This document shows positions 52 to 51,699 of a DNA stretch of 64,000 bases, in pieces (position 1 is the stretch's first letter; every line of letters starts with the position of its first letter). The translations under genes and the position numbers were made by a program. Below the pieces are notes generated by a model. That model saw nothing but the letters and a program-made list of their open reading frames with translations, ran no database searches and was not told where the DNA came from. The stretch comes from a virus. Where the stretch lies: positions 29,467 through 93,466 of IMG/VR virus record IMGVR_UViG_3300022220_000003; one strand, written 5' to 3'.

Positions 52-111
52 TCCACGGACCACCCGCAGGCTATAACCTTATTTTATCGCGGGTTTGCGG
101 CGGCGGCAAGT

Positions 112-592: not shown

Positions 593-607
593 GCACCGCG
601 GGTTGCT

Positions 608-626: not shown

Positions 627-750
627 GGCGGCGGGGGTGCCACGAGGCGCAGCGGGGCTCGGTCCTGTTTTTTGTTCCTTGCGGGGCTTGCCTACCTTGG
701 GATCATGTTTACCACGTTGACACCTTGAGGGCGCTAGGGTAGGGGGTGGT

Positions 751-1765: not shown

Positions 1766-1793
1766 GCATACTTAGTATGCAACACCGGTGCCA
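1765..1793 (-). promoter_or_regulatory. Sigma54-like promoter with palindrome, leftward
   Basis: On the minus strand TGGCAC (1788-1793), five bases, and TTGCA (1778-1782) match the -24/-12 consensus, fused to TGCATACTAAGTATGCA (1765-1781). It drives the gene at 1490-1765, whose ATG starts on the last palindrome base. Confidence 0.6.
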
Positions 1794-1904
1794 GGTTTTC
1801 TGAGGTATTGGGGCCGTATTGGGGTGATACCGGTATGATACCACGCCTAAAATCAAGCACTTGCGGCCGGCGGGAGAGCTCGGAGGTGTGTGGGTGCAAT
1901 ACCT

Positions 1905-2058
1905 CTATGACTTAGGTGTCATAGTTGTACTTGGTTGATATTACTAGGGAAACCGGTGATTTTACGTATTTACTATGACATTAAAGTCATAGGCTACTTG
2001 GTTGTTTTTGTTGAGCAAAGGGCGTTTTCGGTGGTTTGCTATGACATAAATGTCAGGG
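1905..2058. promoter_or_regulatory. Array of three upstream inverted repeats
   Basis: CTATGAC-N6-GTCATAG occurs at 1905-1924 and 1973-1992. At 2039-2058 the left arm is intact and the right arm keeps only GTCA. Centres are 68 and 66 bp apart and lie about 98, 164 and 232 bp before the rightward start near 2147, and 150-284 bp before the leftward start near 1765. The array between divergent promoters looks like a shared enhancer. The 365-bp gap 1782-2146 holds nothing else recognised. Confidence 0.6.
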
Positions 2059-2118
2059 TTGGTTATTGGGCCGTTGGCTTCGAGCCTAGTTTATCGGGTG
2101 TTTGCGGGCCTGGCAAGT

Positions 2119-2147
2119 TGGCACCGGTGTTGCATACTAAGTATGCA
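2119..2147 (+). promoter_or_regulatory. Sigma54-like promoter with palindrome, rightward
   Basis: TGGCAC (2119-2124), CGGTG, TTGCA (2130-2134) is a full match to the -24/-12 consensus, joined to TGCATACTAAGTATGCA (2131-2147). The ATG of the next gene starts at the final A. Similarity to the element at 112-140 extends about 20 bp further upstream (TTTGCGG...GGCAAG). Confidence 0.6.
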
Positions 2148-2797
2148 TGACCAACACGAACAAAACCACCGCCACCTACGAGAGCGCCCGGCAACTAGTC
2201 GCCACCCTCCGCGGGGAGCTCGAGCAGCTCACCTTGTTGCCCTCCGACACCCTCGAGATCTGCGATCAGTTGGTTGCTCGTGTCGAGCTCGCCAAGGCGC
2301 GGGCGGATAGCGCGCCTAGCGATATCGTGAAGTTTTCGCGGCCCGAGCCCGAGAGCGTGCTCGAGCGTGAAAAGGCGGCGGCCCGCCGGGCGGGTGCGGC
2401 GGCGGTGGTTGAGGACGCCAAGGCCAAGGCCGAGTTTCTGGCCAAGACTGCAGTCAAGGGCCCTCGCAACCCCGTGCACTTGGTTGAGGTCGAGGAGGGC
2501 CACCACGTTGACGTGATCCCCCGCAAGTCGATTCGTCTGCACGGCTTGGACCGCAACCGCCGCAACGGCCCGGTGGCCTACGATCGGACCTTCGAGATCG
2601 GCGACTCGGCCGAATACGACAGCTATAACACCTCATTTATCGGCCGGATCGTGGCCATCGGCGCCAAGACCGTGACGATTGACACCAAGATGGGTGAGCG
2701 GCGGCGATTGAAGCTCGAGCAGTTCTCGTGGCGCAACCGCCACTTTGACCTTGAGACCGTGGCCCGCCGCAACGCCGAGGAAAGTTATTACATCTAA
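2147..2797 (+). CDS. Early protein with C-terminal SH3-like domain
   Basis: A 216-residue protein. Residues 1-60 are helical, 65-105 are Ala/Lys/Glu-rich and probably a coiled coil or linker, and roughly 145-205 form a compact beta-rich domain (F-x-I-GD-x-AEYDSYN, G-x-I-x-x-I-G-x-KTVTI). I know this block from other phage proteins but cannot name the family. The ATG overlaps the promoter palindrome, so translation is probably leaderless. It heads an operon running at least to 4310 with short gaps or overlaps. Function unknown; a small-ligand or nucleic-acid-binding role is only a guess. Confidence 0.75.
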   Translation: MTNTNKTTATYESARQLVATLRGELEQLTLLPSDTLEICDQLVARVELAKARADSAPSDIVKFSRPEPESVLEREKAAARRAGAAAVVEDAKAKAEFLAKTAVKGPRNPVHLVEVEEGHHVDVIPRKSIRLHGLDRNRRNGPVAYDRTFEIGDSAEYDSYNTSFIGRIVAIGAKTVTIDTKMGERRRLKLEQFSWRNRHFDLETVARRNAEESYYI

Positions 2798-2813
2798 CCA
2801 AGGAGCCAACACC

Positions 2814-3239
2814 ATGACCACCAACGTACGCACCGAGCGCAAGTTTGAGACCTACTCCCGCGGGGCCGAGCTCGTGAGAGCTATCAAGGCCATGTGGGAG
2901 TGCAACGAAGGTGACCGCGGGCGGCCCGATGGTAACACTCGGATCAACACTCGTATTGAGGCCCTAGCGGCCGAATACGATTTGACCTCGGTTGAGTGGA
3001 TCTATTGGGCCCGCATCGCCATGGGGTTAACGAAACCCAATCAACTTTACCTTTGCCGCGGCCTCCCAACACACTGGGTTGCCACCGACGCCAACAATCA
3101 GCCTTGGCTGTTTCCGGCGGTGGCGGGTGGGTGGAAGCACCGAACGCGGTTCGTTAGCCACCTCGAGGCCTTGATCGAGACCGACAACCTTTACGCCACC
3201 GGTACGGGGTGGTGCAAGTCTGAGGAGGGTTCACCATGA
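2814..3239 (+). CDS. Hypothetical early protein
   Basis: A 141-residue protein with an aromatic, Trp-rich central part and no recognised family. The ATG at 2814 follows AAGGAGCCAACACC, a strong ribosome site, and is preferred over the longer frame beginning inside the upstream gene. It ends in an ATGA overlap with the next gene, so the two are probably translationally coupled. Confidence 0.7.
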   Translation: MTTNVRTERKFETYSRGAELVRAIKAMWECNEGDRGRPDGNTRINTRIEALAAEYDLTSVEWIYWARIAMGLTKPNQLYLCRGLPTHWVATDANNQPWLFPAVAGGWKHRTRFVSHLEALIETDNLYATGTGWCKSEEGSP

Positions 3240-3637
3240 CCACCAAAACCACAATGTGGGAAGTCTACAACCCGAGCTCGGGGCACAGTCTAGGCCATTA
3301 CAAGGCCGAGAGCTCCGAGGAGGCGATCGAGGCGTGCTGCCGGGCGGCGGGGTACGGGTCGGAGGCGGAGGCCTCCGCGGCCACCGGCGGGCGGGGGGTG
3401 CTCCGAGCTCTCGAGGTTGAGGAGGTCGATCTCAACACCGACAACGGATCCAAAACGCGGGCATACCTAGACGAATCAGGGTTTGCGACCTTCGAACATG
3501 CCAACGCCGCGGGCGATCGGATGATCGTCAAGGCCAAGGGCAACTGCCTCGAGATTGTGCCCGCGTCCGGTTGTTGTCTCAAATCCAATGTGGAGCACGC
3601 CGGCCGGGCCGTCTATATTTGGGTGCAACCATGTTGA
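3236..3637 (+). CDS. Hypothetical early protein
   Basis: A 133-residue protein. Residues 8-45 have the form W-x-V-Y-N...LG-x-Y-x-A-x-S-x-E-E-A-I..AAGY, a layout I know from small phage and bacterial proteins of unknown role. A cysteine-containing C-terminal half follows. Coupled to the upstream gene by ATGA; the next candidate gene starts inside its last codons at 3631. Confidence 0.65.
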   Translation: MTTKTTMWEVYNPSSGHSLGHYKAESSEEAIEACCRAAGYGSEAEASAATGGRGVLRALEVEEVDLNTDNGSKTRAYLDESGFATFEHANAAGDRMIVKAKGNCLEIVPASGCCLKSNVEHAGRAVYIWVQPC

Positions 3638-4032
3638 CCATGTTCGTTGTTGGGTGGCGCTGCGGGTGCGGTTGCGAGACCTTGCACCGCATGTATCTGA
3701 AAACCTCACAGGAGGCCTTGGCGCTAACGGTGCAGCTCCGCGATAGCACCGCCACCGAGACCTGGGTGTGGCGAATGCGACTCCCGCGGCGCAAGGAGGC
3801 GATCCTAGTGGCGCTCAACTACTGCTGTGGGGCTCGATATCGAGCTCGAGGGGGAGCTCGAGCAGCTCGCGCACCTAGTGCGATCCGATTGGGAGGCCGA
3901 GGCGGAGGCCGAGGAGCCGACGCACGGCGAGGGCCCGCCCGGTGGCCGAGGAGCCGACGCACGGCGAGGGCCCGCCCGGAGGCCGAGGAGCCGACGCACG
4001 GCGAGGGCCCGCCCGGTGGCGAGTTTCATTGA
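3631..4032 (+). CDS. Cys-rich hypothetical protein with repeat-encoded tail; frame uncertain
   Basis: This frame gives 133 residues. Residues 1-65 look like a genuine protein (a WRCGCGCETLH cluster, then a helical segment). After about 3826 it becomes Arg/Gly/Ala-rich, while the frame one base over reads a plausible acidic helix (LDIELEGELEQLAHLV) before both enter the 37-bp tandem repeats at 3908-4018. Either a frameshift near 3827 joins two frames, or the tail is low-complexity. It ends 35 bp before the Fis-like gene. Function unknown. Confidence 0.5.
   Translation: MLTMFVVGWRCGCGCETLHRMYLKTSQEALALTVQLRDSTATETWVWRMRLPRRKEAILVALNYCCGARYRARGGARAARAPSAIRLGGRGGGRGADARRGPARWPRSRRTARARPEAEEPTHGEGPPGGEFH
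3908..4018 (+). repeat. Three tandem 37-bp repeats inside coding sequence
   Basis: Near-identical units start at 3908, 3945 and 3982 (each begins GCCGAGGAGCCGACGCACGG). Since 37 is not a multiple of three, each successive copy is read in a new frame. Three copies restore the frame and give peptides of the type AEEPTHGEGPPG, GRGADARRGPAR and RPRSRRTARARP in rotated order in every reading frame. Confidence 0.9.
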
Positions 4033-4067
4033 GTGGCCTTGGCCCGCGGATTGCAAGGAGATCGGAT

Positions 4068-4310
4068 ATGACGAAAAAGGTATCCAAAACCACCCGAAAT
4101 GGCCATTTACTTGGACGGTTAGTCCGTGACGCGGAAAAGGCCATTATTATCCAATACATAGCCAAGCATCGCGGAAACAAGACCCACGCGGCCGAGGCCC
4201 TCGGGGTGACGCACCGGCATTTGCAGCGGCGGTGCGTGGCGCTCGGTATCGAGGGGGCGGACCTCGAGGGCGGCAACGTGGGTGTTGTAATCGTGGGCGG
4301 GCTTGTGTAG
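4068..4310 (+). CDS. Stand-alone Fis/NtrC-type helix-turn-helix protein
   Basis: An 80-residue protein. Residues about 19-61 match the C-terminal DNA-binding domain (HTH_8/Fis type) of NtrC-class activators: a helix with AEKAIIIQYIAKHRGNKTHAAEALGV, then THRHLQRRCVALGI as the recognition part. No receiver or AAA+ ATPase domain is present. It should bind inverted repeats as a dimer; the CTATGRC-N6-GTCATAG arrays in this region are natural candidates. AAGGAG-N7 before the ATG at 4068 is a strong ribosome site. It is last in the operon from 2147, ahead of the hairpin at 4348. It could also act as a nucleoid-like Fis protein. Confidence 0.85.
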   Translation: MTKKVSKTTRNGHLLGRLVRDAEKAIIIQYIAKHRGNKTHAAEALGVTHRHLQRRCVALGIEGADLEGGNVGVVIVGGLV

Positions 4311-4945: not shown

Positions 4946-5326
4946 TTAATCCTGTTGGTTGCGGTCGCGGTCTCGGTCTAGGTCGCGGTCGCGGTCGCGG
5001 TCGTTTGGTCTCGATTTGTTCCGTATCCGGGCCAGGAGTGGTCCGGTCTCGTTTTCGGGCGGGGTTTCGAGCGGTGGGAGGTGGTCTCGTATGCCCGGGC
5101 GCCTTGGGCCACTGTAGCGGCCGGTATTCATGCGTTCAAATGGCCAAATCGAGTAGGCCTGGCCCGTGTCGGACTCGGCGAGGTCTGGGGTTACTTTCTC
5201 GAGGGTGTGGGGCCTCGTTTTGCACTGGCATACCGGGCAACGGATCTTGGTGGTCACGAGGTGGCACCGGTGGCACGTAGGGGCCGTGAAATAGGATCCG
5301 ATCGTGGTGTTGACGGGGCTCGGCAT
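4946..5326 (-). CDS. Small zinc-ribbon protein with Arg-Asp repeat tail
   Basis: A 126-residue protein. Residues 17-33 hold C-x2-C-x9-C-x2-C, a zinc-ribbon signature. The last 20 residues alternate Arg and Asp, encoded by a (GGTCGC)n-type hexanucleotide repeat at about 4961-5003. GAGGTG sits four bases before the ATG on the minus strand. About 95 bp upstream is a leftward copy of the sigma54-like element. It may be a nucleic-acid-binding or adaptor protein. The + strand frames across it are Gly/Arg-rich shadows. Confidence 0.65.
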   Translation of the reverse strand: MPSPVNTTIGSYFTAPTCHRCHLVTTKIRCPVCQCKTRPHTLEKVTPDLAESDTGQAYSIWPFERMNTGRYSGPRRPGIRDHLPPLETPPENETGPLLARIRNKSRPNDRDRDRDLDRDRDRNQQD

Positions 5327-5393
5327 ACTGCACCTCGAGGGGTTGATTGGGGGCAGCTTATCACGGGCTCGGGTGGAGGTTTACTGGCATGGT

Positions 5394-5403
5394 GTGACGT
5401 CAC
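5394..5403. repeat. Perfect 10-bp palindrome GTGACGTCAC
   Basis: A perfect palindrome between the sigma54-like element at 5420-5440 and the zinc-ribbon gene, so inside its predicted leader. It could be an operator or an RNA stem. No second copy was seen nearby. Confidence 0.4.
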
Positions 5404-5419
5404 GATGTGTCAGGTTGTT

Positions 5420-5440
5420 GTGTATGCATACACGATGCCA
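5420..5440 (-). promoter_or_regulatory. Sixth sigma54-like element, leftward variant
   Basis: On the minus strand TGGCAT (5435-5440), five bases, then ATGCA (5425-5429) keeps the spacing of the other copies with one change in the -12 box. Its palindrome is different: perfect 14-bp GTGTATGCATACAC (5420-5433). The gene at 5326 follows at about 95 bp, similar to the 100-bp leader of the gene at 242. No CTATGAC repeat was found upstream. Confidence 0.4.
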
Positions 5441-5785
5441 AAAAATAATGTTCTGGGTTATTGGGGGGTTAGGTGGAGGGTATGGCGGGCTTTGTCAGGC
5501 TGTTTGGATGATGTGGTGCGTCATTGAGGTGGGGTTGGCGGTTTGGGGTTATTTAGGTGGGTTGTTGTCGATTTGGTTGATTGAAAAAGTGGTGTGTTTG
5601 TAGGGGTTTACAAGGGGGGCTTGACGTGACTTGTCAACGTTTTTCGAGGCGTAACGATTACAGGTAGTTAGCTACTTATGTAAGTGGTTATGGAAGTGGT
5701 GGGATGTGTCGAGTTGTGACAGGTGGCGGTGTAAGTCGGTGTAATCGTTGCGGTATTGGTATGGGAGGGCGTGGGGGGTGATTGG

Positions 5786-5839
5786 GTGTCTCGATTTGTG
5801 GACAGTGTTGCGGTTCCGAGTGTCTTGATTTGTGGACAG
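5786..5839 (+). repeat. Two 20-bp direct repeats, 34-bp spacing
   Basis: GTGTCTCGATTTGTGGACAG at 5786-5805 and the same with one change (TCTTG) at 5820-5839. They lie 180 bp before a second, unrelated repeat family. Repeats of two kinds flanking a short segment also resemble multi-repeat ends of some transposons, but no transposase is present. Confidence 0.8.
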
Positions 5840-5842
5840 GGG

Positions 5843-5858
5843 TGGCGAAATTTCGCCA
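5843..5858. repeat. Perfect 16-bp palindrome TGGCGAAATTTCGCCA
   Basis: A perfect 16-bp inverted repeat without spacer, four bases after the second TTTGTGGACAG repeat and directly before the G-tract region. It looks like a protein-binding site for a symmetric dimer. Confidence 0.65.
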
Positions 5859-5895
5859 GGGGGGTTTTGGGGGTTTTGAGGGGGTGGGGTGAGGG
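5859..5895 (+). other. G-quadruplex-forming motif
   Basis: Successive G-runs of 4-6 separated by TTTT, TTTTGA and T (GGGGGG-TTTT-GGGGG-TTTTGA-GGGGG-T-GGGG) meet the usual four-run rule for an intramolecular quadruplex on the + strand. The fold is predicted from the pattern only. Confidence 0.6.
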
Positions 5896-6003
5896 ATTGA
5901 GTTAGGGGGTGGGTTTGCGGCGGTTTTTGGGGCCTTAGGGGGCTTGTCACGTGGTGGTGTAGGGTGGTGGGGAGGTGTTTCGGTTGGTGGGCACGGCGGG
6001 AGA

Positions 6004-6085
6004 TGTGCACCATTTTGGAGCAGTTGGTGAGGGGTGTGCACCATTTTGGAGCAGGTGGGGTGAAATGTGCACCATTTTGGAGCAG
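6004..6085 (+). repeat. Three exact 20-bp repeats with 31-bp period
   Basis: TGTGCACCATTTTGGAGCAG is present without change at 6004-6023, 6035-6054 and 6066-6085. The period of exactly 31 bp is close to three helical turns, so bound proteins would sit on one face of the DNA. The 11-bp spacers differ from each other, which indicates selection on the 20-mers. Confidence 0.85.
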
Positions 6086-6377
6086 TTACAGGTTGGTGAG
6101 GTTGAGGGTATAAGGTTTTGTTATAGGTGGGTAGTGTTTTTGGGCGGTTTACTTATGGGTTTTGGGGGGTTGGGGGTTGTTTGTGGGCGGCCCGCGGCGG
6201 GGTGGACGCGACCGGCCTCGGGCCGGGCCTGGTGCTGCGGTGTAGGCCCCGCCCGCACCTCCGCACCGCTCCGCCCCTAAGCCCCGTCCTGTGCAGCTCT
6301 CGAAGAGCTCCCCGGCCTCGATCTCGGTTCCCAGTGGTTCGTCCCTATGGGAGCTCGAGCTCGGCGAGCCGTGCGAC

Positions 6378-6896: not shown

Positions 6897-7018
6897 GAGC
6901 TCGGGGGTGGCACGGCGGGTGCAACTCGAGGAGGGCGACACAATATCAAGGGGTTACGGGCCGAGAGCTCCCCGCCGAGCTCCCCGAGGGCCGTGTTTAG
7001 CGTGTAGGGCCAATACCT

Positions 7019-7194
7019 CTATGACTTAGGTGTCATAGTTGAGATTAGGGGCTAACTACTCGTAATGAGGGCGAAAATGCCAATTGGTACTAGACTACTA
7101 TGGCAATCATGTCATAGTTGAGGATTGGGCTAACTGCACGTAATAGCGAAAGAATCCTAGGTTAGACCGATTTACTATGGCATCTATGTCATAG
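7019..7194. promoter_or_regulatory. Second array of three upstream inverted repeats
   Basis: CTATGACTTAGGTGTCATAG (7019-7038) is identical, with flanks, to the copy at 1905. CTATGGC-N6-GTCATAG occurs at 7098-7117 and 7175-7194. Centres are 79 and 77 bp apart and lie about 112, 189 and 268 bp before the rightward start near 7297. As at 1905-2058, the array lies between divergent units (6868 leftward, 7297 rightward). The remainder of 6897-7268 contains no gene. Confidence 0.6.
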
Positions 7195-7268
7195 CTATGA
7201 TGCTCTGCGTTATCAAGGTGATTGGCCTAAGTGCTTGATATTGTGTTGAGAGCTCCTCGCCACGGTAT

Positions 7269-8797: not shown

Positions 8798-8881
8798 CTG
8801 TTATAAGTAAAAGTATAGAACAATAGGCCACGCGTGCCAGGTGTGACACAACATTTATTCAAAACGTAAAATAAAACAGGC

Positions 8882-14006: not shown

Positions 14007-15197
14007 ATGGCAACTGAACCTGAGATCATTGCATCATTAACCGCGGGCATGTCTAGTGCCTACGGCGAGCCCGAGGCCACCTATGAGGAGTTTGCAGGCG
14101 CGATCGCCCCTGCCATTGTATTGGGTGGCAGTGGTGCCGCTGGCGGCGACGTAACCGGGCCCGCGAGCTCGACTACCAACGGGGTGGTGGTTTTTGATGG
14201 TACATCGGGCAAGGTGATCAAAGGAGCCACCGCGGCGGTGGATTTCGGTGGTCAGAATATCACCAACGTGGGATCGATCGCTGGTCTCGTTCCAACGAGC
14301 CGCCAAATCAACAACGGCACCGGTATCAGTGGAGGTGGAGATCTCACAGCCGATCGGACCCTATCTGTCAACCAAGGAGCCCTAGATCCTTCCAATATGG
14401 ACAGCACGGGCGCCACCGATGGCCAATTGGCCACGGCCGATGGCCTCGGTGGTATAGCCTGGGAGGACGCCGCCGCTGGCGGCGGCGGCGACGTGTCCGG
14501 GCCCGGGTCAAGTACTGACCATGGCTTGGCGCGCTATCACGGAGCGACCGGCAAAATTATACAGAATAGCGGTGTTACGCTTAGCGACGGCAACGCCATG
14601 GTGTTCCCGTCGTCAGGGTCCATTAGCTGCCGTGGGTCCGGCAGTTACTCGGAAAAATTCGGCGTTGGCGCAGTCGCGAATGGAACTTCAGCAACCGCAA
14701 TCGGTAGGCTTGCCGAGGCGACGCATAATGATACGACAGTGGTTGGCGCACAAGCTGACGGCAAGGCGGCAAAGGCCTGCGCGTTCGGCAAGGGTGCATT
14801 GGTCAATACCGGCGCAATCAATTCGATTGCCATTGGTTACGGCACAGAAGCGAAAGGAAGTGCAACCAACTGCGTTGCGGTTGGTTATTATGCCGAAGCG
14901 TCGACCAACGTCGATCACAGTGGTGCGCTTGGTACCAATGCAAAAGCTGCCCATGACCAGTCTTGGGCCTTCGGTCGCGCGGCGATCACGACTGCAACAA
15001 ATCGCGTCACGTTCGGGCAAATCGGTACCGGTTACTTGCTCGAGCTGCAGTGCGGCGACGGCTTTGGCTGCTTCGGCGTAACACCCCCTGGATCACAGCC
15101 GGCCAAGATCAGCGACCCCACCGATTTGGCGTCATGCGTCACAGCCATTACCGCGATAATTGACGTTTTGGAGGGTGCGGGGCTCTCAAGTACATAA
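14007..15197 (+). CDS. Fibre-like protein with YadA-type head repeats
   Basis: A 396-residue, Gly/Ser/Thr-rich protein. It has two GDV(T/S)GP-x-SST blocks (about residues 48-57 and 160-170) typical of phage tail-fibre stalks. Residues about 215-330 hold repeats of the trimeric-adhesin head type (x-A-I-G-x-x-A-x-A, V-A-V-G-Y). A C-terminal segment of the CFGVTPPGSQPAKISD type follows, common at fibre ends. It probably trimerises and binds a host surface. It is out of place among replication genes, and the 14540-15060 part lacks the GAGCTC/CTCGAG words common elsewhere, pointing to recent acquisition. Confidence 0.8.
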   Translation: MATEPEIIASLTAGMSSAYGEPEATYEEFAGAIAPAIVLGGSGAAGGDVTGPASSTTNGVVVFDGTSGKVIKGATAAVDFGGQNITNVGSIAGLVPTSRQINNGTGISGGGDLTADRTLSVNQGALDPSNMDSTGATDGQLATADGLGGIAWEDAAAGGGGDVSGPGSSTDHGLARYHGATGKIIQNSGVTLSDGNAMVFPSSGSISCRGSGSYSEKFGVGAVANGTSATAIGRLAEATHNDTTVVGAQADGKAAKACAFGKGALVNTGAINSIAIGYGTEAKGSATNCVAVGYYAEASTNVDHSGALGTNAKAAHDQSWAFGRAAITTATNRVTFGQIGTGYLLELQCGDGFGCFGVTPPGSQPAKISDPTDLASCVTAITAIIDVLEGAGLSST

Positions 15198-31221: not shown

Positions 31222-33777
31222 ATGCAATTGAGCACGACCCCAACCCGCAGGCGAGCTCGCCGAGCTCGTGTTGTCAAAACCGTGACCTCGCAAGACCTCG
31301 CCACAAGCGGCAAGCTCAAGGATGCGGGTTTGCCCGGTGGGAGTGGGATCACCGAGTTGTGGGGTCTAGCGGTGAGCAAAACGGCGGCGGCCGAGCTCTT
31401 GGTGGGCAAGATCAACACTGTCGCCAAAACGACCGATTTGGACCTATCAAAACGCACGATGGTGGTGCTCGCCGAGGGCCGGGCCCTCGGGGAGGTGCAG
31501 CTCGGCAAAAAGGTTGAGGCGAGGACGTGGGCAATCAAATCGGCCAAGGTTTTTGACCGGCCCAAGCCCACCAACATACCGGCGGTGGCCAATGGTGTGG
31601 TTAAAGGGGTGCGCCTGCTCGAGCGGCTCAAGGCTACAGCAATAGAGGAACCGGTAACCAAGAGCCAGGCCAAAACCTACAATCCGCGGCCAGTGGTCGA
31701 TTCGGTGCTCTTGGCGGACGTGCGGGCCTTAAAAGAGTGGGGCGAGGAGGTGGCTTTCAAAAAGGCGCTCACCGAGGTGGAGCGGCGGGGCTTGCAGCTC
31801 CCCCAGCTCGAGCTTGCCCCCGATACCGATCCCGAGATCTTGACGTCCACCGAGCTCTTGGAGGCCCACCGAGCGCTACATGTGGCCAAGGGGTGGAGCT
31901 CCGAGGACGCGATCAACGTGCATGCCCAGATAGTGGCCGAGCTCGCCGATCGCGGCATGCCTCACCCCGAGCCACCTCCGGGCCTTGATCAACGCTCCGA
32001 GCCGTTGGAGCCGGGCGAGGTCCAGATCACAAAAGCAGCGGCCGAGGTGGCCTTGGCCGAGCTCGTGGCCTCGGTCGAGCAATATCCGGTTTTGGTCCAT
32101 AAACGTGTTGAGGGCCGGGCGGTGGTGGTGGCCAAGACCGGGGATCAAGTCAAAGTGGTCGGTGAGGATGGGACCGATCATACCGCGGAGGTGCCCGAGG
32201 TGGCCCGAGCGGTGGCAGCTCTCAAGGCCGAGGCGGTGGAGCTCGAGGGGGTGCTCGAGCCGTGGCACGGTGGCGAGGTGTTGCAGGTCCAAGATCTCGT
32301 TTATGCCGGCCGGGATCTTCGAGATTGGCCGGTATCCAAGCGGCTCGAGCGATTGGCCGAGCTCGGTATCGAGCAGGCCACCGCGTCAACGCCGAGCCGG
32401 CGGATACCTGTTAACGAGCTCCCCACAATCGAGGCCACAGACGGCGAGGCTCTCGAGCGGGCGATCCGTGTCGTCAAATCCTTACCCGGGGCGGCGGGCG
32501 TGGTGGTGAAGCCCGCAACTTCTATTGACCCGGGCGAGTGGCTCGAGCTCGAGGCCGAGCCGGTGGCCAAGGTTGCGCTCTCGGGGCCGGTGCCTTTTGT
32601 GTGGCGTGGGTCCGAGATCTTGATCGGTACCCCCGGCGGGCGGAGGGTCGAGCGGTGGCAGCTCGAAGGGGAAGCGGCCGAGGCACAGATCGCCAAACGC
32701 CGGGCGCCAATGTCGTGGGGTGCACTGCGGGCCGAGTCCACCGAGCGAGGGGAGGCGGAGCTCGGGGCGGTCAAGCCGTGGTGCCGCGAGTATTTTTTGC
32801 GAGGTGAGCAGGCGGCCCACCGGTTGGTGGTCCGCAAAATGCAGATCGGCGAGCTACAAAAGGCGGTCCATTCGTACACCCAATGCATGGTTTGCCGAGC
32901 GGCCCCTGTAATTGACGTGTTGTGGGCCGATGGCCGCGGCCGAGCTTGGTTTTGCAAGGGGTGTTATCCCAAATGGATCCACAAGGGCGGAGGCGCCAAG
33001 ACTCTCGAAGTGATTGGCACCAAGGCAATTATCGGTGGCCGAGCTCCCGCCAAGTATTCAGACCGCCACAACCGTGTCACAACCACCAAGGCCGCGAGCC
33101 CCCACGAGCTCGGCGAGTGGATTGTAATCCGTTCAAACGACCCCACGCCCATGGTGTTGCAGGCCGAATCAGTAACCAAGCGATGGATCCCACCGCTTGG
33201 TGTGTCAGCCTTGCCGCGATCTGTGGCCGAGCAAGTACCGCTTGATCTCGCCTATTGGCAAGCAGGTACTTTGGTGGAGGCCCGCGAGCTCCGTGATCAA
33301 CTTGTGTCAAAGATTGACAAGGGGGAGGTTGAGATCGATTACTCCGCGGCGTACACACCCAAGCCCGCGTCAGAACCTGTCACACAACCAACTACCGAGC
33401 CGGCGGAATTGTTTGTTTCCATTGCCAAAATTGACACCGACCGGCAAATCGTGACAGGTATAGTCTTAGAACCGGGCGAGGTCGATGCTCAAAACGATAC
33501 TATCACTGCCGAGGTTATCGAAAAAGCATCGATCAATTTTCTGTCCCGGTATAATTCCGAGACTCAACTAGGGTTTATGCACAAAATTTTTGGCGAGATC
33601 GGATTGCAGCTCGCCGCCAGTTGGGTAGCACTGAGTAACCAGACGCTTGGCGGCAAAAAGGTCAAGCGAGGCTCGTGGCTTATGAGCGTCAAGGTTGTGG
33701 ACCCCAAGTTGTGGGCTCGCGTCAAAAAGGGCGAGTTTGCGGGGTTCTCGATCGGCGGTGTTGCAAAGGTGCGATAA
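31222..33777 (+). CDS. 851-residue fusion: ligase-like domain plus XkdF-type prohead protease
   Basis: The C-terminal part (about residues 731-851; R-QIVTGIVLEPGEVDAQND ... KRGSWLMSVKVVDPKLW ... FAGFSIGG) matches XkdF-type putative serine proteases that mature capsids. Residues about 285-440 align with the ATP-dependent ligase fold: K-R-V-E-G-R-A-V-V-V, EDGTDHT..VPEVARAV, LVYAGRDLRDWPVSKRLERLAEL, and AAGVVVKP in place of motif IV EG-x-V-x-K. The catalytic Lys motif and the motif IV Glu appear altered, so adenylation is doubtful. A C-x2-C zinc knuckle pair lies near 554-580. GGAGGCCCC precedes the ATG. Family XkdF proteins are usually far shorter. Confidence 0.85.
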   Translation: MQLSTTPTRRRARRARVVKTVTSQDLATSGKLKDAGLPGGSGITELWGLAVSKTAAAELLVGKINTVAKTTDLDLSKRTMVVLAEGRALGEVQLGKKVEARTWAIKSAKVFDRPKPTNIPAVANGVVKGVRLLERLKATAIEEPVTKSQAKTYNPRPVVDSVLLADVRALKEWGEEVAFKKALTEVERRGLQLPQLELAPDTDPEILTSTELLEAHRALHVAKGWSSEDAINVHAQIVAELADRGMPHPEPPPGLDQRSEPLEPGEVQITKAAAEVALAELVASVEQYPVLVHKRVEGRAVVVAKTGDQVKVVGEDGTDHTAEVPEVARAVAALKAEAVELEGVLEPWHGGEVLQVQDLVYAGRDLRDWPVSKRLERLAELGIEQATASTPSRRIPVNELPTIEATDGEALERAIRVVKSLPGAAGVVVKPATSIDPGEWLELEAEPVAKVALSGPVPFVWRGSEILIGTPGGRRVERWQLEGEAAEAQIAKRRAPMSWGALRAESTERGEAELGAVKPWCREYFLRGEQAAHRLVVRKMQIGELQKAVHSYTQCMVCRAAPVIDVLWADGRGRAWFCKGCYPKWIHKGGGAKTLEVIGTKAIIGGRAPAKYSDRHNRVTTTKAASPHELGEWIVIRSNDPTPMVLQAESVTKRWIPPLGVSALPRSVAEQVPLDLAYWQAGTLVEARELRDQLVSKIDKGEVEIDYSAAYTPKPASEPVTQPTTEPAELFVSIAKIDTDRQIVTGIVLEPGEVDAQNDTITAEVIEKASINFLSRYNSETQLGFMHKIFGEIGLQLAASWVALSNQTLGGKKVKRGSWLMSVKVVDPKLWARVKKGEFAGFSIGGVAKVR

Positions 33778-34775: not shown

Positions 34776-35975
34776 ATGGCCGGTATCCCAAACGAGGAGC
34801 TGATCGCCAAAGCCGTGATCACCACCGATGCGCTCGCTGCAAGTGGCAAGCTCAACGACAAACAGTCAGAGACGTTCCTAGACTACGTGATCGAGGAAAG
34901 CGTCTTGAAAGAAAATGCCCGTGTGATCAAGTTCAGGGCGGAAAACCTCAACATCGATAAGATTGGCGTTGGAGGCCGTGTTGCATTTCCCAAAGCAGAA
35001 GCCACGGATCCGGGCCATCGTCGAGGGGTTTCGACTTCGCAGATCCAGTTGACCCCGCGCGAGATTATCGTCCCGTTCGAGATCGGGGATCTGTTCAAAG
35101 AGGTAAGCCTCGAGAGCCCCGAAAAAATCGAGACTCACATCATTCAAATGATGGCGAGGCAGCTGTCAAATGATATGGAGGAGCTCTACATCTTGGGCGA
35201 TACCGTGGGCCCCGCGATCCTCGAATCGGAGTACCTCGACAACGGGAGCGCCACCCAATACGTCAAGGACAGCTACTTGGCGTTGCAGGACGGTTGGAGC
35301 CGGTTGGCCGACGGGGCCAACGTGGTGGACGCCCAAGGTGCCAACATTGGGCTGAGCATTTTTGGCCAAATGTTGCGGGCGATGCCCACCAAATTCCGAC
35401 GCAACAAGCGAGCCCTGCGTTGGTTCTTGAGCCCAGATTTGTGGCAGCTCTACACCGAAAAGTTGAGCACCCGCGCCACCGCGCTCGGTGACTCCGCGGC
35501 CGGTGGTGGTGAGCATGGCCCCTATGGCGTGCGACCCGTCGAGGTGCCCTTGTGGTCACTCCAACCCAAGGTGGTGCAACACGTGACCCTAACCGGGACC
35601 ACGGCGGTTGCCTTGCGGTTTGGGCCGATCTCCAACGTGGTGGTGAGCACCGAGACCTTGGGCCAGACCCCCGAGACCCCCTACGCAGAGACCACCGATT
35701 GGGTGGCCGACTACACCGCGGGCACCATTGTCCGGGCCGGTGGTACCACGATTGGGTCCGGTGACACCGTCAAGGTGACCTACGATGCGAACCCGCAGGT
35801 TCTCTTGACCCACATGAACAACTTCGTTGTGGGGATCGGTCGAGACATCAAAATTGAAAAGGACAGAAACATCTACAAAGGTGTCAACGAATACGCGATC
35901 CATGCCAAGGTCGCGGTCCAATTCGAGGAGTTGACGGCGATCGTCAAAGGCAAAAACATCGGGACCAGCATCTAA
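34776..35975 (+). CDS. Major capsid protein (HK97 fold)
   Basis: A 399-residue protein, the usual size. N-terminal helix (residues 25-50), a central E-I-x-V-PF-E-I-GD-x-F-x-E-V strand pair, a long spine helix near 110-135, and an R-x-L-R-W-F-L-S-P-D-L-W segment are typical of HK97-type capsid proteins of myoviruses with XkdF/XkdG genes. The C-terminal part (residues 270-340) carries an inserted beta domain rich in Thr/Gly. TGAGGAGGACAAACC is a very strong ribosome site. Position after protease and scaffold confirms the role. Confidence 0.9.
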   Translation: MAGIPNEELIAKAVITTDALAASGKLNDKQSETFLDYVIEESVLKENARVIKFRAENLNIDKIGVGGRVAFPKAEATDPGHRRGVSTSQIQLTPREIIVPFEIGDLFKEVSLESPEKIETHIIQMMARQLSNDMEELYILGDTVGPAILESEYLDNGSATQYVKDSYLALQDGWSRLADGANVVDAQGANIGLSIFGQMLRAMPTKFRRNKRALRWFLSPDLWQLYTEKLSTRATALGDSAAGGGEHGPYGVRPVEVPLWSLQPKVVQHVTLTGTTAVALRFGPISNVVVSTETLGQTPETPYAETTDWVADYTAGTIVRAGGTTIGSGDTVKVTYDANPQVLLTHMNNFVVGIGRDIKIEKDRNIYKGVNEYAIHAKVAVQFEELTAIVKGKNIGTSI

Positions 35976-42285: not shown

Positions 42286-43281
42286 ATGGGCTATACAAAA
42301 ACAGCCGACGGCACGCGAATCGTTGCGACGCCAGAGTGGGCGCTTGGCCAACTGGCTTGCAAGCGGATCACCGATGGCAAGGTGTCAATGAAAGTTGACG
42401 GCTCGCCGAGCTCGGCAACTATCATCTGGAATGGGACCGGCGAAAATGATACCGGCGGCGATTGGACGCGCAGTGGTGAGGGGAGCGAATCCACAGCAGC
42501 TAAAAAAAGCGGAACGAACGGGCTCAACACCACCGTGACGAGCGAAAACGACACCTCGGTGTTTGACAACGGCTCCATGGTCGACGTTGACGGCACCTAT
42601 GGCAGTCTGCAGTTTTGGATTCGGGCCAAGGTTTACCCTGTGGGATCCGATCCGGTGGTGTTTTGGCGGGATAGCTCCAACGTCCTTGTTGGGGTTGAGG
42701 TGCACCTAAACGACTACGTCGAGGACTTTTCGGACGATACGGAATGGCACCTTGTGGCGATCCCTATTTCTGATTTTGCGCTAACCACCAACGTGCAAAA
42801 GCTTGTTTTCCGGTATGAGGGTGTAGGCGGCCAACGCTATTTCATTGACGATATCGAGCTCTACAGCACGGGAGGGTTTGTCTATCGAGCAGCGGCCACT
42901 GCAACCGAGGTGTACCACCTCAAAGATGTGATCTTGACCTTCGTTGAGGAGAATGGGACTTGGGACAGCGGGGATTTTACCGCGATCAACGGCGGGCTAT
43001 CGAACGGGTTGCTTCTGAGGCACCGGCGGTTGAGCACCGGGGAGGTGCTTTGGAAGATCAATTTCAAAAGCAATATCACCCTGTTTGGGCGGCTCAACGT
43101 TCTGAACGACGTTGAATATAGTACTTCGGTGCACCAATTCACGCTGGCCCTGGATCCAACCCCTGCGATGATCAAGGTGACGTCCGACGATGTGATCGAG
43201 TGGGTGGTTAGGGATGACTTGACCACAATCAACGATATTCGCTCGTTTTTGCGCTATGGCCGAGAGGAGGTGGCGGCGTGA
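42286..43281 (+). CDS. Carbohydrate-binding-module-like virion protein
   Basis: A 331-residue protein. Residues about 35-195 look like a lectin/CBM jelly roll (FWIRAKVYP, DTEWHLVAIPISDF, FIDDIELY at the end). The second half is another beta domain resembling the C-terminal part of the preceding gene product. It may bind host polysaccharide. ATGs of neighbours are within 4 bp, so the cluster 40523-44018 is one translational unit. Confidence 0.65.
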   Translation: MGYTKTADGTRIVATPEWALGQLACKRITDGKVSMKVDGSPSSATIIWNGTGENDTGGDWTRSGEGSESTAAKKSGTNGLNTTVTSENDTSVFDNGSMVDVDGTYGSLQFWIRAKVYPVGSDPVVFWRDSSNVLVGVEVHLNDYVEDFSDDTEWHLVAIPISDFALTTNVQKLVFRYEGVGGQRYFIDDIELYSTGGFVYRAAATATEVYHLKDVILTFVEENGTWDSGDFTAINGGLSNGLLLRHRRLSTGEVLWKINFKSNITLFGRLNVLNDVEYSTSVHQFTLALDPTPAMIKVTSDDVIEWVVRDDLTTINDIRSFLRYGREEVAA

Positions 43282-44018
43282 CCGTCAACCTAAACAAGGT
43301 GCCCCGCAACTTGGATAACAAGCCGTTTATGGTGCCCGTGATTCACCACGATCATGACAAATTCATACATGCGGGGAGCTCTGATGATATTGCCAACGGG
43401 GTGCGGTGGGATGGTGATTTATTCGAGTTGACTCGCACCGATTCCGGTGACACGACGGGGACATTTCAATACTTGGAATGGGTCCGGATAGCGGGCGCGC
43501 ATGTTACGTGCACCGGCAATGTGGCAGGTGACCATGTGCATGGTAAGGTGTATGCACCCTCCTCGAGCCCGGCGGCGACCTCCAACCCCGGGGCGGGTGC
43601 GTACGATAAGTACAACCTTGGCACGGGGATGAATGTGTTTGTACCCAATGGGACGCAAACCGGTGATTGGGATCTGGACCTGTCAAGTCGACTAAACGCC
43701 AACTGTAATATCACCAAGGTGTGCCCGGTGACGGCTGAGGACGGGGACGGGTGGTTTGACTATGACTCCGACAGTGGAGACGTGACACTAAACGCGGGTC
43801 AGGCCGGCGGGTATAACTTGTTTGACTTCGATTTGGATTTGCTCCGGATCATTCCAAAGGCTCCCCTGCCATTTTCAGGGTATTGGAACCTGGCCCCCGC
43901 CAATGTGCGGCCAATGCTTTTGCTACCCCATTGGAAGCTCGAGGTGATCCTATCGCGGACAACAGGTGGTACGGTGTCCGTGAATTGGGTGTTGATTATC
44001 GAGAGGGCCACGACATGA
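43278..44018 (+). CDS. Hypothetical virion protein
   Basis: A 246-residue, beta-rich protein with many Asp/Gly turns; no family recognised. It starts in a GTGA overlap with the preceding gene and ends in an ATGA overlap with the patatin gene. Function unknown; appendage or decoration role by context. Confidence 0.6.
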   Translation: MTVNLNKVPRNLDNKPFMVPVIHHDHDKFIHAGSSDDIANGVRWDGDLFELTRTDSGDTTGTFQYLEWVRIAGAHVTCTGNVAGDHVHGKVYAPSSSPAATSNPGAGAYDKYNLGTGMNVFVPNGTQTGDWDLDLSSRLNANCNITKVCPVTAEDGDGWFDYDSDSGDVTLNAGQAGGYNLFDFDLDLLRIIPKAPLPFSGYWNLAPANVRPMLLLPHWKLEVILSRTTGGTVSVNWVLIIERATT

Positions 44019-44878
44019 CCGAGAAAACAGCGCTAGTCCTCTCGGGCGGTTCGCGGTTTGGAGCCTGGCAAGTGGGTGCGGCAAAACGCCTATACGAAAA
44101 GGGGTTGAAACCCAAGATTTTTTGCGGGGTGTCCGTTGGTGGGCTCAACGGCGCATTTTTGGCGCAATACGATCACGAGGTGTCGGCCTTGCAAGCGGTT
44201 CACGATTTGGCCGATCGGTGGCAACAGACTACAACTAGGGACGTTTGGCGCCATCACATACCGTTTGGGTATTTACACCTACCTTGGAAAAAGAGCCCAT
44301 ACGATTCGAAACCCTTGCGGCGATTGATTCGGCAGTGGTTCGATCCGGTTTTGGTTGAGGCGGCGGGCAACGAGCTCTACCTCGGGGCGGTATCGTTGGA
44401 ATCGGGCCGGTATCACGTGTTTGGGCTTGACCATATTGATCCGCATGCGGTCTTGGCCGCAAGTGCGGCCAACGCCATGTTTGAGCCCCGCGAGCTCCCC
44501 ACCGGCCTGTGTGCCGATGGCGGTTTGGTTTGTGCCACGCCCTTGCGGGCGGCGTTTCGAGCGGGAGCCACCCGGATCTACGTGGTGCTTACCGAGGCCG
44601 ATGTGATGGCCGAGCAGACCAAGCTTGATACGTTCGCCCAAATTGGGCCTCGCCATATTGCGATCCTAGCCCGTAGTGTTTTCGAGCTCGATATCGGTTG
44701 GGCCCTCGCCGAGAATAAATTGGCCGCAAGTGGAGCGGGCACCAAGCGCCACGTCGAAATCAAGGTTTTGCGACCGAGCGAGCCTCTCGAGGGCGATCCG
44801 TTGGATTTTGACCCCACCCGCTCGGCGGAGTTGATCAGGTGGGGTTACGAGGACGCCAAACAAGTGGTGGTGCAGTGA
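44015..44878 (+). CDS. Patatin-like phospholipase
   Basis: A 287-residue enzyme of the patatin family. The glycine-rich oxyanion loop GGSRFGAWQVG is at residues 11-21, the nucleophile elbow G-V-S40-V-G at 38-42, and the catalytic Asp is in D168-GG. All parts of the Ser-Asp dyad are present, so lipid acyl hydrolase activity is likely. Within a late virion cluster it could help DNA entry through the host membrane, damage membranes at lysis, or modify lipids. No signal peptide. ATGA on the 5' side and GTGA on the 3' side couple it to its neighbours. Confidence 0.9.
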   Translation: MTEKTALVLSGGSRFGAWQVGAAKRLYEKGLKPKIFCGVSVGGLNGAFLAQYDHEVSALQAVHDLADRWQQTTTRDVWRHHIPFGYLHLPWKKSPYDSKPLRRLIRQWFDPVLVEAAGNELYLGAVSLESGRYHVFGLDHIDPHAVLAASAANAMFEPRELPTGLCADGGLVCATPLRAAFRAGATRIYVVLTEADVMAEQTKLDTFAQIGPRHIAILARSVFELDIGWALAENKLAASGAGTKRHVEIKVLRPSEPLEGDPLDFDPTRSAELIRWGYEDAKQVVVQ

Positions 44879-45228
44879 GTCAATTGGTTGACCTATTTTA
44901 TGGCGCGATTGTCGTGATCTTTGGGATCGCCGATTTGTGGTGGGTCGTCTATCGTACGCCGGCGGTCTCGAGGACCCTCGCCGCGTTTGGCTGGCGAGTA
45001 TCGGTCATGCCATTTGCTTGCGGGGCGTTTATCGGCAGGTTGGCCAGCGCCGAGCTCGGTCCAATAGGCGGTGACCCTCTCAAGGCAGCGGGTTTGTTGG
45101 TGGCGTTTTTCGTGCTCGTGTATGGAATCCATTGGTTTTTGCGTACGTGGTTGGAGCTCCCCAGCTGGTTTGGTGTTTTGTACGTGCCTTGTGGTATCGC
45201 TACAGGGATGCATTTTTGGCCGGTATGA
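44875..45228 (+). CDS. Membrane protein, holin-like candidate
   Basis: A 117-residue protein with about four hydrophobic stretches (residues 7-25, 42-60, 68-88, 96-112), strongly aromatic. GTG start overlaps the patatin stop. Being coupled to a phospholipase, it may deliver or regulate it at the membrane, or act as a holin; no endolysin is nearby to support the latter. Confidence 0.6.
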   Translation: MSQLVDLFYGAIVVIFGIADLWWVVYRTPAVSRTLAAFGWRVSVMPFACGAFIGRLASAELGPIGGDPLKAAGLLVAFFVLVYGIHWFLRTWLELPSWFGVLYVPCGIATGMHFWPV

Positions 45229-45236: not shown

Positions 45237-45545
45237 GTGGCCGAGGTCAGAGAATCGACGATCCGGGCCTTATCGGGTACCACCAACGGTATCAACAAGA
45301 TGTTTACCACGCCCACCGAATACCAGGCGGGATCGTTGCGGCTGGTCTGGAATGGTCAAGTTTATGAGCCTACCGATTCGACTTTTGGGTGGACCGAAAC
45401 CGGAACCAACGAGATCACGTTGACCACGGCCCCCCGGGCGGGGGATGTAATGCAGGCGTTCTATCGTGATTACACAGGAACCACGGTTGACCCCACCGAC
45501 GTGGTGGTTGGGTCACCATTCTACCCGGGGGAGCTCGGGCCATAA
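45237..45545 (+). CDS. Small virion protein
   Basis: A 102-residue beta-rich protein (ALSGTTNGINK-x-FTTPTEYQAGSLRLVWNG...W-x-E-T-G-T-N-EITLTTAPRAGDVMQAFY), a fold and pattern found in phage appendage or neck modules. GAGGTGAGTT precedes its GTG. Function not known precisely. Confidence 0.65.
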   Translation: MAEVRESTIRALSGTTNGINKMFTTPTEYQAGSLRLVWNGQVYEPTDSTFGWTETGTNEITLTTAPRAGDVMQAFYRDYTGTTVDPTDVVVGSPFYPGELGP

Positions 45546-45969: not shown

Positions 45970-47082
45970 ATGCCATCGATCGCCAGGGGCCAAGAGAACA
46001 CCACCGATCGGATCAACTGGTTTGTGACGATCAATGGCAATCTAGCGGACGTGCATGAGATCGGATTTCGGATCCTCGATATCAGCGGGGGATTGCCAGG
46101 CACGCAAATTTTCCCGACAACCCCGGGCGATTTCGAGGACGTGACTTCGGCCCCCGGCAATTTTAGCGTGGGGTCGTATTACGCCTACGATAACACGGCG
46201 GGCACCGGGTGGACCCCAGAGCTAACCGCGAGCCTCGGTGACCACCGGATTGAGTGGCGGTGGAAAACCTTCGCAAGCTCGAGCTATCAGCTCGACGCCG
46301 AGGATTTTACGGTCCTGGTCGAATCGGCGGGGAGCTCAACGGACACCTATATCACGGTCCAAGATATCCGAGATGTGGGGATCACGGTAGCCATGGCCGA
46401 TGATCAGACCGTGCTTGACACGATCGCGATATGGCAAGAATTCATCGATCGGGCGTGTAGACAGTGGTTTAACCCTCGAGTTCTCACGTTGCTATTTGAC
46501 GGGACGGATTCAGATACGCTGCACTTTGGCGTGCCAATTATTTCGATCGACTATGTGCGGCTCAACAACGATACGGTCAACCTCAACACCGATTATTACA
46601 AGGTCTATAGCTCCCGCAGCTATCCGGACGATCGGCGCAACCCGCGGGTCAAGCTGATTCGTTCCGATCAGTTTCGAGACATATACACCGCTCCATTGAC
46701 GTGGGGCGATCTCCGGTTTCGCAAGGGGCGGCAAAACCAGACGATCAGAGGGACGTTCGGTTTCACCGAGTCCGATGGATCGGTGCCCAAGTTGATCCAA
46801 CGGGCCTTGACCAAGCTCGTGGTTGAGAAGCTCCAAAACCCGATATTCCATGACTACAGCACCGGACCCGCACCGGTGCCAGCTCCACCCCCGATCGTTG
46901 GCCCCATGACCTCGGAAAAAACTGACGATCACGAGCGCAAGTTTGGCCAGGCCGGCGGTGCAGTTTCGAGCCGGCGGCCGGGGCTTGCGGGGATCACAGA
47001 TGATCAGGAGATCCTCGGCATTATCAAGCTTTACCGAGCGCCACTAGGGATCGCGACCCCGGCCCATTGGAGCTACCAATAA
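45970..47082 (+). CDS. Head-tail connector with N-terminal beta domain
   Basis: A 370-residue protein. Residues about 120-300 (Y-I-TVQDIRDVGIT-x9-VLDTIAIWQEFIDRACRQWFNPR...) are the helical core of gp6/gp15-type head-tail connectors, normally a protein of 100-200 residues. The first 115 residues form an extra beta-sandwich of the kind used as decoration (WFVTINGNLADVHEIGFRI). Pro-rich linker and tail at the C-terminus. It docks under the portal ring. Ends TAATG with the next gene. Confidence 0.78.
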   Translation: MPSIARGQENTTDRINWFVTINGNLADVHEIGFRILDISGGLPGTQIFPTTPGDFEDVTSAPGNFSVGSYYAYDNTAGTGWTPELTASLGDHRIEWRWKTFASSSYQLDAEDFTVLVESAGSSTDTYITVQDIRDVGITVAMADDQTVLDTIAIWQEFIDRACRQWFNPRVLTLLFDGTDSDTLHFGVPIISIDYVRLNNDTVNLNTDYYKVYSSRSYPDDRRNPRVKLIRSDQFRDIYTAPLTWGDLRFRKGRQNQTIRGTFGFTESDGSVPKLIQRALTKLVVEKLQNPIFHDYSTGPAPVPAPPPIVGPMTSEKTDDHERKFGQAGGAVSSRRPGLAGITDDQEILGIIKLYRAPLGIATPAHWSYQ

Positions 47083-49410: not shown

Positions 49411-51699
49411 ATGGCCGTCAAGCGTTTTGGACCAACCCGCGGCGCGGGCGTTGTTGTAATCGAAAAAGAAGGCGAGAAAACGATCGAGGCCGGGGCCCTC
49501 GGTATGGTCGCCTACTCTGGCGTTTTGGAAAAGGGCAACCCGGGTGAGCTGATCCAAACGTTCAGCAAAACCGAATTTCTGAAAAAATGCGGTGGGCGGC
49601 TCACCGATTGGCAGACCCCCAATTGCGCGATCGACTTTTTCGACAACGCTGCGGGAGCCGGGGCGGTGCATTTGGTGCGGATCACCGATGGCAACGAGCT
49701 CCAAGCCGAGGCCACGTTGTACGCCAGATACGAGAGCCTTTTGACCCCAATGGGGACGATCAAGGCCAAAAACGGCGGCCGGTGGGGCGGCAAAAAGCTC
49801 TATTACACCGGGGACGTGGCCGCGTCTGGAGACATCACCGACACCACGTTGGACACCGGGATCACGACGTTCACCACCGACCAATGGGCCGGCGGTTATG
49901 TCGAGCTCGAGGATGTGCCAAACGTGCAGTTTCCGATCGTTGGCAATGATAACACCGGCGTGATCACCCTCGCGGCCGATCAGACAATGAAAACGCAGTA
50001 TGACGCGTTGAGCGGCTCGAGCCTCAGGTATTACCTTGTCCTCGAAAACGAGGAGAAGGAGGTGACGTTCAAGATCGGGGACGGCGAGGATCTACCGGAC
50101 ACCGAGTTTTCTCTCGAGGTGTATGTTGACGGTGAGACCGTCAAGACATGGCCAAACCTCAACACCGATTCGACCAATGGCAAGTATTGGGTGGACGTGA
50201 TCAACGAGGACACCGGCAACGACGAGATCGAGGTTGTCGACCTTTGGACCGGTGCCCACACGGCGGCGGTGCGGCCGGCGAATCACTATGGTGTGATTGA
50301 TACCGGTTTGACCGATACGGTTTTGACCGCGGAGATTTCTGATTTTCGGGTGACTCTGTCACCGACCGGGGCGAATCCGACATTTGGGCTTGGCACCACC
50401 ACCGATGCAATGGAGCCGCAACAGATCACGGTGACCATGTCCGGGGCGGCGGCGTTTGATGCGGTCTCGGATAAGTTTGGTGCTCTTGGCTCGGGTGCCA
50501 CCGATGCGTTGTTTACGCCAGACAACAAGTGGACCCCACCATTCACCATTACCGAGGGGGCCACACCCCTTGCCACGGCCGACGTCATTGTGATCAACTA
50601 CAAGCCGTTCCAACCCGATGAATTGATCGGCGGTCGGATCTATCCGGACAAGGAGAACGCCAAGAACGTCAACTATCGGATCGTTGACAACGACCACAAG
50701 ACGATCACCGCGGCGGATGGGTCTGACATGACCACCGACGGGGCCGACGGTGACACGTTTATGGTGGTGGCTCCGATGCCTTTGGCCGGCGGTCGCGATG
50801 GCAATGCCGATCTGATCGATGCGGATTACTCGCAACAGGCGTACGACGTGGACGCGAGCCCGTTCAACCAACTATTTGGCAAGAACTACGGTTTGATCAA
50901 GATGGCCACCCCCGGTATTTCCGCAACGGCCGTTCAAAAAGCGGGGTTGGCCTATGCCGCGGCGCGCAACTACCAGTACCGCTACGAGGTGCCATCAAAC
51001 TACACCACCGAGGTCTCGGCGATCGACTATATCAACGAGACGATCGGCCGGTCCGATTACGCGGTCTGTGCGTTCCCAAGTTGGGGATATGAGACCGATC
51101 CGGATTCCACCGAGGGGCGGTTGATGCTCGTTTCAATGACGGGCGCCATCCACGGCAGGGAAGCCAGAATTGCAGTCGATTATAAAGGCTATCATAAGGC
51201 CGGGGCGGGCCAGGACGCCACCCTGCCTCAAATCCTCAAGATCCCAACGGGCGAGACTGCTCTGAACGAGGAGATCCTCAACCCGGCGGGGTTGCAGGTG
51301 ATCAAAAAGATCAAGGGCAACTTCGTGATCTGGGGGGACCACACGCTGTACACCGATCCAACATGGAAATGGAAGCATCAACGCGAGCTCATGTCCTACT
51401 ATGAGAACGTGTTACGGGAGTCTTTCGATTGGATCGTGTTTATGATCAACGACCCGATCACCGAAAACCTGGCCAAGGTCGCGTTGCGGTCGTTTTTCGA
51501 GCCAGAATACGCCAAGCGGGCGTTGCGGGGGGATACCTTCAACGACGCTTGCGTGATCAAAATTGACGGCGAGAACAACACCAACGCCACCCGGGCGGCC
51601 GGTGATATGTACGCTGATTTGACCTTGCGTTTGGCCGATACGGTCGAGCGTTTCATTCTGCGAATGGGCAAGGCTGGAATCTTTGACGGGGCGGCCTAA
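49411..51699 (+). CDS. Tail sheath protein with large insertion
   Basis: A 762-residue protein. The N-terminal R-GAGVVVIEKEG..T-I-EAG...GMVAYSG and the C-terminal third (KAGLAYAAARNYQYRYEVP, FVIWGDHTLYTD, ESFDWIVFMINDPIT, and TLRLADTVERFI at the end) belong to contractile phage sheaths. Most phage sheaths have 380-500 residues; about 250 extra residues between roughly 130 and 430 are beta-rich surface domains. Contraction of this protein drives the tube into the host. TTAGGAGGAGACC before the ATG is very strong. Confidence 0.9.
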   Translation: MAVKRFGPTRGAGVVVIEKEGEKTIEAGALGMVAYSGVLEKGNPGELIQTFSKTEFLKKCGGRLTDWQTPNCAIDFFDNAAGAGAVHLVRITDGNELQAEATLYARYESLLTPMGTIKAKNGGRWGGKKLYYTGDVAASGDITDTTLDTGITTFTTDQWAGGYVELEDVPNVQFPIVGNDNTGVITLAADQTMKTQYDALSGSSLRYYLVLENEEKEVTFKIGDGEDLPDTEFSLEVYVDGETVKTWPNLNTDSTNGKYWVDVINEDTGNDEIEVVDLWTGAHTAAVRPANHYGVIDTGLTDTVLTAEISDFRVTLSPTGANPTFGLGTTTDAMEPQQITVTMSGAAAFDAVSDKFGALGSGATDALFTPDNKWTPPFTITEGATPLATADVIVINYKPFQPDELIGGRIYPDKENAKNVNYRIVDNDHKTITAADGSDMTTDGADGDTFMVVAPMPLAGGRDGNADLIDADYSQQAYDVDASPFNQLFGKNYGLIKMATPGISATAVQKAGLAYAAARNYQYRYEVPSNYTTEVSAIDYINETIGRSDYAVCAFPSWGYETDPDSTEGRLMLVSMTGAIHGREARIAVDYKGYHKAGAGQDATLPQILKIPTGETALNEEILNPAGLQVIKKIKGNFVIWGDHTLYTDPTWKWKHQRELMSYYENVLRESFDWIVFMINDPITENLAKVALRSFFEPEYAKRALRGDTFNDACVIKIDGENNTNATRAAGDMYADLTLRLADTVERFILRMGKAGIFDGAA

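Follow-up and report, generated by a model that had tools for sequence, protein, structure and literature searches.

Introduction

The closest precedent for the locus described here is the patatin 'lytic cassette' of Wolbachia phage WO, which was proposed (PMC9203015; earlier suggestion in PMC3173496; see also PMC5062602) because WO lacks an endolysin, a holin, and a spanin (PMC9203015). Patatins are also encoded by the marine megaphage Mar_Mega_1 (PMC9723777) and among the morons of Burkholderia prophages (PMC2920897); these are phage patatins too, but they belong to different phages. The patatin domain is likewise common to the CapV-type phospholipase effectors of CBASS.

Here we analyze a patatin gene and the membrane protein gene that adjoins it in a 64,000-base stretch of DNA (the window), which comprises bases 29467–93466 of a 93,466-base virus record. 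By description, phage WO and the window phage are alike in that each carries a patatin near late or tail genes and beside a small membrane protein, with membrane action at exit or entry suggested. A first-pass annotation had delimited the pair at 44015–45228, and our analysis returned the same range.

An Intact Patatin Gene in a Myovirus Late Operon

The patatin gene (44015..44878, plus strand) encodes a 287-residue patatin-like phospholipase/acyl hydrolase, beginning at ATG 44015 and ending with the stop codon at 44876–44878. A 331-residue frame starting at TTG 43883 was rejected in favor of ATG 44015, since the latter matches the coupled start in a sister phage. Residues 7–180 align with positions 1–190 of the PF01734 profile at E=1.5e-19 and 71.4 bits, compared with a curated cut-off of 27.7, and membership of the PF01734 patatins stands on sequence. 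The first-pass annotation had described the enzyme as intact on the basis of three motifs, each of which is present on the plus strand as described: the oxyanion-hole loop GGSRFG (codons 11–16, 44045..44062), the nucleophile elbow GVSVG with S40 (codons 38–42, 44126..44140), and DGG with the catalytic Asp168 (codons 168–170, 44516..44524). The Ser-Asp dyad (GxSxG with DG[GA]) is retained throughout the comparison set: S40 and D168 do not vary in an eight-sequence alignment, and each of the 24 rows of the motif table has both. In the oxyanion loop, the third Gly and the Arg of the canonical patatin GGGxRG are replaced, and the motif table shows loop variants among bacterial homologues as well (GGASLG, GGSSLG, GGFLRG, and GGGSLG). 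The enzyme is apparently functional, with lipid acyl hydrolysis as its predicted activity.

The only solved-structure match to the protein was PlpD (PDB 5fqu, E=1.4e-9). PlpD belongs to the secreted type Vd autotransporters. The window patatin shares its family, catalytic dyad, and patatin domain with PlpD and other bacterial PF01734 phospholipases but, whereas PlpD is secreted, has neither a secretion nor a transport domain, and no signal peptide is apparent. A PHROG search with the patatin returned no match, and an AF2 prediction of the protein made from two sequences had a pLDDT of 34. In an NG86 comparison of the window phage with its sister, where dS exceeded 1 throughout so that the values are rough, dN/dS was about 0.13 for the patatin, 0.07–0.15 for neighboring genes, and 0.44 for the membrane gene, indicating that purifying selection acts on the patatin and that the membrane gene evolves faster.

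As the first-pass annotation had placed them, both genes sit inside the late operon among virion genes. The gene set is that of a myovirus (terminase, portal, probable capsid protein, head-tail adaptor, tail sheath, tape measure, and baseplate wedge), and includes on the plus strand the probable major capsid protein (34776..35975; phrog_1623 virion structural protein), the head-tail adaptor (45970..47082; phrog_442), and the tail sheath (49411..51699). Immediately upstream of the patatin, a 246-residue protein that is possibly virion or fiber related (43278..44018, plus strand; 88% identity in the sister and 37% in L044 and L046) overlaps the patatin start by ATGA, while the patatin stop overlaps the GTG start of the membrane gene at 44875 by GTGA, an overlap that the first-pass annotation had noted. 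These two overlaps link the genes in a closely coupled series. Downstream, a 102-residue protein with weak tail-fiber/structural PHROG similarity (45237..45545, plus strand) is conserved in patatin-less relatives and marks the boundary of the variable slot discussed below. A scan of 42–47 kb for promoter- and terminator-like signals gave no excess over shuffled sequence.

This location bears on whether the enzyme serves auxiliary lipid metabolism, in which fatty acids cleaved from the host's phospholipid would supply energy or precursors, with no part in lysis. Such a role would suit the enzyme class, and the patatin of the marine megaphage has been listed among auxiliary metabolic genes (PMC9723777), but the window patatin lies in the virion operon and not with the nucleotide and replication genes of the left half, and we consider a purely metabolic role improbable.

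Three other genes drew attention during annotation. An 851-residue protein (window positions 31222–33777) ends in an XkdF-type protease domain (PF14550), and its N-terminal part is unusually long for a head maturation protease. YadA-head repeats occur in a 396-residue protein (window positions 14007–15197) encoded in the half of the genome devoted to replication. Finally, a radical SAM protein (L004:7587–8312) is encoded on the minus strand, with nearly all other genes on the opposite strand.

The Adjoining Membrane Protein

The membrane gene (44875..45228, plus strand) encodes 117 residues, probably forming four transmembrane helices, in line with the multi-span protein of the first-pass annotation. 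AF2 places helices at 2–27, 33–61, 68–93, and 97–114 at low confidence (mean pLDDT 57.7), and the C-terminus reads GMHFWPV. The protein has no match in Pfam, NCBIfam, or PHROG, so its identification as a holin is without family support; holins are diverse, and a similarity test is not decisive on function. When viral contigs were searched with this protein, only the sister phage matched. A weak match within a 599-residue frame of one genome of the phylum Myxococcota (E=3e-4) was rejected as chance-level. Profile comparison by hhalign with a family of small membrane proteins found in relatives was colinear over 91 columns with a probability of 48% and a score of 29.6, the best of 200 block-shuffled controls scoring 26.1. 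The window protein is thus likely a homologue, and a diverged member, of that family, which occurs in patatin-less relatives.

Distribution of the Two Genes among Relatives

The sister phage (G001, IMGVR_UViG_3300009509_000010; locus L002) conserves the two genes, with 77% identity for the patatin and 39% for the membrane protein, so neither is a chance open reading frame. In the sister, too, the upstream gene is coupled to the patatin, there by a GTGA overlap. The GTGA overlap between patatin and membrane gene is not conserved: in L002 the patatin stop (TAG, 8856–8858) and the membrane gene start (ATG 8864) are 5 nt apart.

A search with the capsid protein yielded 249 relatives, and the best 80 of the 249 loci were examined. 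Capsid and connector were both present in 44 of these 80, at distances of 1 to 9.9 kb, and among the 44 complete capsid-to-connector intervals the sister's was the only one with a patatin match. The first-pass annotation had called such lipases uncommon in late operons, and PF01734 was found in just one of 35 long relatives, the distantly related G483 (locus L041). Pattern searches of viral contigs, whether started from the single patatin sequence or from a two-sequence alignment, returned the sister phage only, and the L041 patatin was for this reason reached only via the connector gene, not through the capsid search. Pattern searching may have overlooked further distant patatins of phages.

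The L041 patatin (34% identity) occupies the same slot, directly upstream of the homologue of gene 45237; the two overlap by GTGA, and the membrane gene is absent between them. Directly upstream of the L041 patatin, L041:5285–6784 encodes a 499-residue protein that bears a lipoprotein-type signal along with an fn3 domain and may be a secreted glycanase. The L041 and window patatins may or may not go back to one capture (p-AU 0.44), and the L041 protein scores higher against the bacterial homologue L024 than against the window patatin. Because L041 has a patatin without the membrane gene and other relatives lack a patatin but encode a membrane protein that is likely related, comparison of these loci indicates that the two genes are separate optional occupants and not an obligate pair. 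The first-pass annotation had suggested that the pair works as a device for membrane attack or DNA entry. An obligate two-part device is at odds with these loci; membrane attack by the patatin as a lysis helper, or a role in the virion, is compatible with them.

A virion role retains some plausibility because the slot neighbors are virion genes. The patatin could be packaged or attached together with the neighboring fiber or decoration proteins and act on the host membrane at entry, as the flanking virion genes on both sides of the block and the tight translational coupling to the upstream gene, kept in the sister, would suggest. However, the protein is soluble and single-domain, with no added virion-anchoring domain and with the same layout as homologous bacterial patatins; it is absent from nearly all relatives that carry the same virion genes; and the corresponding slots of other phages also hold genes of non-structural appearance, such as C92 enzymes and multi-span proteins. 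A virion-borne enzyme is accordingly a fairly unlikely explanation in our judgment.

The closest cellular homologue found, L024, is 36% identical over the full length and belongs to a genome from the phylum of a Myxococcales relative; no membrane partner is visible beside it. A scan of genome contigs with the patatin gave no match. Contigs with sheath genes related to that of the window phage are present in one Bdellovibrio and one Myxococcales MAG (L021 and L022), which hints at a host group, though weakly since binning of phage contigs is unreliable.

A Variable Slot with Alternative Occupants

The slot lies in the late operon between the fiber/decoration genes and the head-tail connector. 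In the patatin-less loci L046, L049, L078, and L087 it is occupied by a small membrane protein of several spans that carries PFxxGxxxGHLFWP-type motifs, and a more diverged form occurs in L066. In L044 and L113, a C92/YiiX-like enzyme of permuted papain fold (L044:13595–14095 and L113:18672–19211) comes after a small membrane protein of another kind. C92-like enzymes are found in the slot of L058 (12558–13070) and L077 (11045–11548) as well, and a related enzyme, detected with a profile built from these four, lies in the same interval of L068 (14099–14629). The assignment is supported by a Pfam match for L044 (6.8e-7) and by matches of L044, L058, L077, and L113 to phrog_1128 at 1e-18 to 1e-10; in an alignment of these four enzymes, with L068 left out, a His and a Cys-Ser-Glu motif are kept. 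One-transmembrane proteins fill the slot in L071, L095, and L098.

The patchy occurrence of the patatin at one variable slot, alternating with C92-type enzymes and small membrane proteins, is what would be expected of moron-type competition cargo, that is, of genes that exclude or damage a superinfecting phage or alter the host envelope. The PHROG to which the C92 slot genes match is classed as moron, and the patatin itself is weakly similar to CBASS phospholipase effectors (NCBIfam 4.3e-8, PADLOC 1e-6). Its score against the CBASS lipase model NF041079, however, is 32.8 bits against a cut-off of 200, on which we rejected identity as a CapV-type effector, and no CD-NTase, cyclase, or other defense partner was recognized among the adjacent genes scanned. 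Expression of the patatin also appears tied to the late operon, and no integrase was seen among the proteins scanned, a scan that was not exhaustive. Competition cargo is therefore an unlikely reading of the patatin, if one to be taken seriously.

The less expected part of these results is the slot itself, whose occupants alternate among patatin, C92-type enzymes, and small membrane proteins. One tentative proposal, which we think has a modest chance of being correct, is that a widespread group of myoviruses uses the slot as a dedicated exchange site for helper modules that act on membranes or lipids (patatin, permuted papain-like C92/YiiX enzymes, and unrelated small membrane proteins) that would be expressed with the virion genes and act beside canonical lysis, either as an extra layer of egress or in superinfection exclusion.

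Canonical Lysis Genes Elsewhere on the Contig

That neither holin nor endolysin is visible, as the first-pass annotation remarked, is true of the window, but this reflects where the window was cut: the lysis genes lie on the remainder of the contig (L003), at contig positions 5090–7214, upstream of window position 1. They comprise an endolysin (5090–5779; Peptidase_M15_4, 3e-14, and PG_binding_1, 2e-11), a holin-family match (5824–6291; PHROG 1299, 2.6e-8), and a weak Rz-like spanin (6930–7214; 4.8e-5). The block is kept in the sister phage, with identities of 64% for the endolysin, 82% over 112 residues for the holin, and 86% for the spanin. M15_4 endolysins were found in 7 of the 17 records tested, including L046, L049, L066, and L087. 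Also in L003, positions 49–4224 encode a fiber-like protein of 1391 residues with many short YDLGS-type repeats and weak similarity to endosialidase tail spikes.

Because an endolysin, a holin match, and a weak spanin are present on the same contig and kept in the sister, the patatin is unlikely to replace classical lysis, and the corresponding suggestion of the first-pass annotation was not borne out. In its strongest form, the suggestion would be a dedicated two-component system in which patatin and membrane protein stand in for holin and endolysin in the manner proposed for WO (PMC9203015), an idea to which the adjacent and overlapping genes lend themselves. In addition to the lysis block, which WO lacks, the separate occurrence of the two genes in relatives speaks against it, as does the nature of the partner: the holin-like protein of WO has a single transmembrane segment and a charged coiled-coil tail, whereas the window protein probably has four hydrophobic helices and has no such tail. 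We regard a two-component system as very improbable, and while WO offers the closest precedent, identity with a WO-type lytic cassette does not stand.

Discussion

Our preferred reading, to which we assign a probability of roughly 0.4, is that the gene is a captured bacterial-type cytosolic patatin, an optional late gene whose product acts on host inner-membrane lipid and assists lysis. A patatin of this type would have been captured into the variable late-operon slot of a myovirus and would be translated late; the enzyme, with no evident signal peptide, would then deacylate phospholipid at the inner face of the host inner membrane and may, together with the canonical holin, endolysin, and spanin, contribute to lysis or to breakdown of the membrane as infection ends. 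The helper step is drawn only from the enzyme class and the operon position. The membrane protein probably occupies the slot in its own right; it could help dock the patatin but is not required across relatives.

The proposal that a phage patatin can substitute for the usual lysis enzymes comes mainly from WO, and the window phage has a patatin together with an endolysin and a holin match. As this late-operon patatin coexists with endolysin and holin match, and one close relative has a patatin while dozens of relatives are without, the two roles are separable. A slot with interchangeable membrane-related genes and enzymes provides a comparative handle on the roles of late accessory genes.
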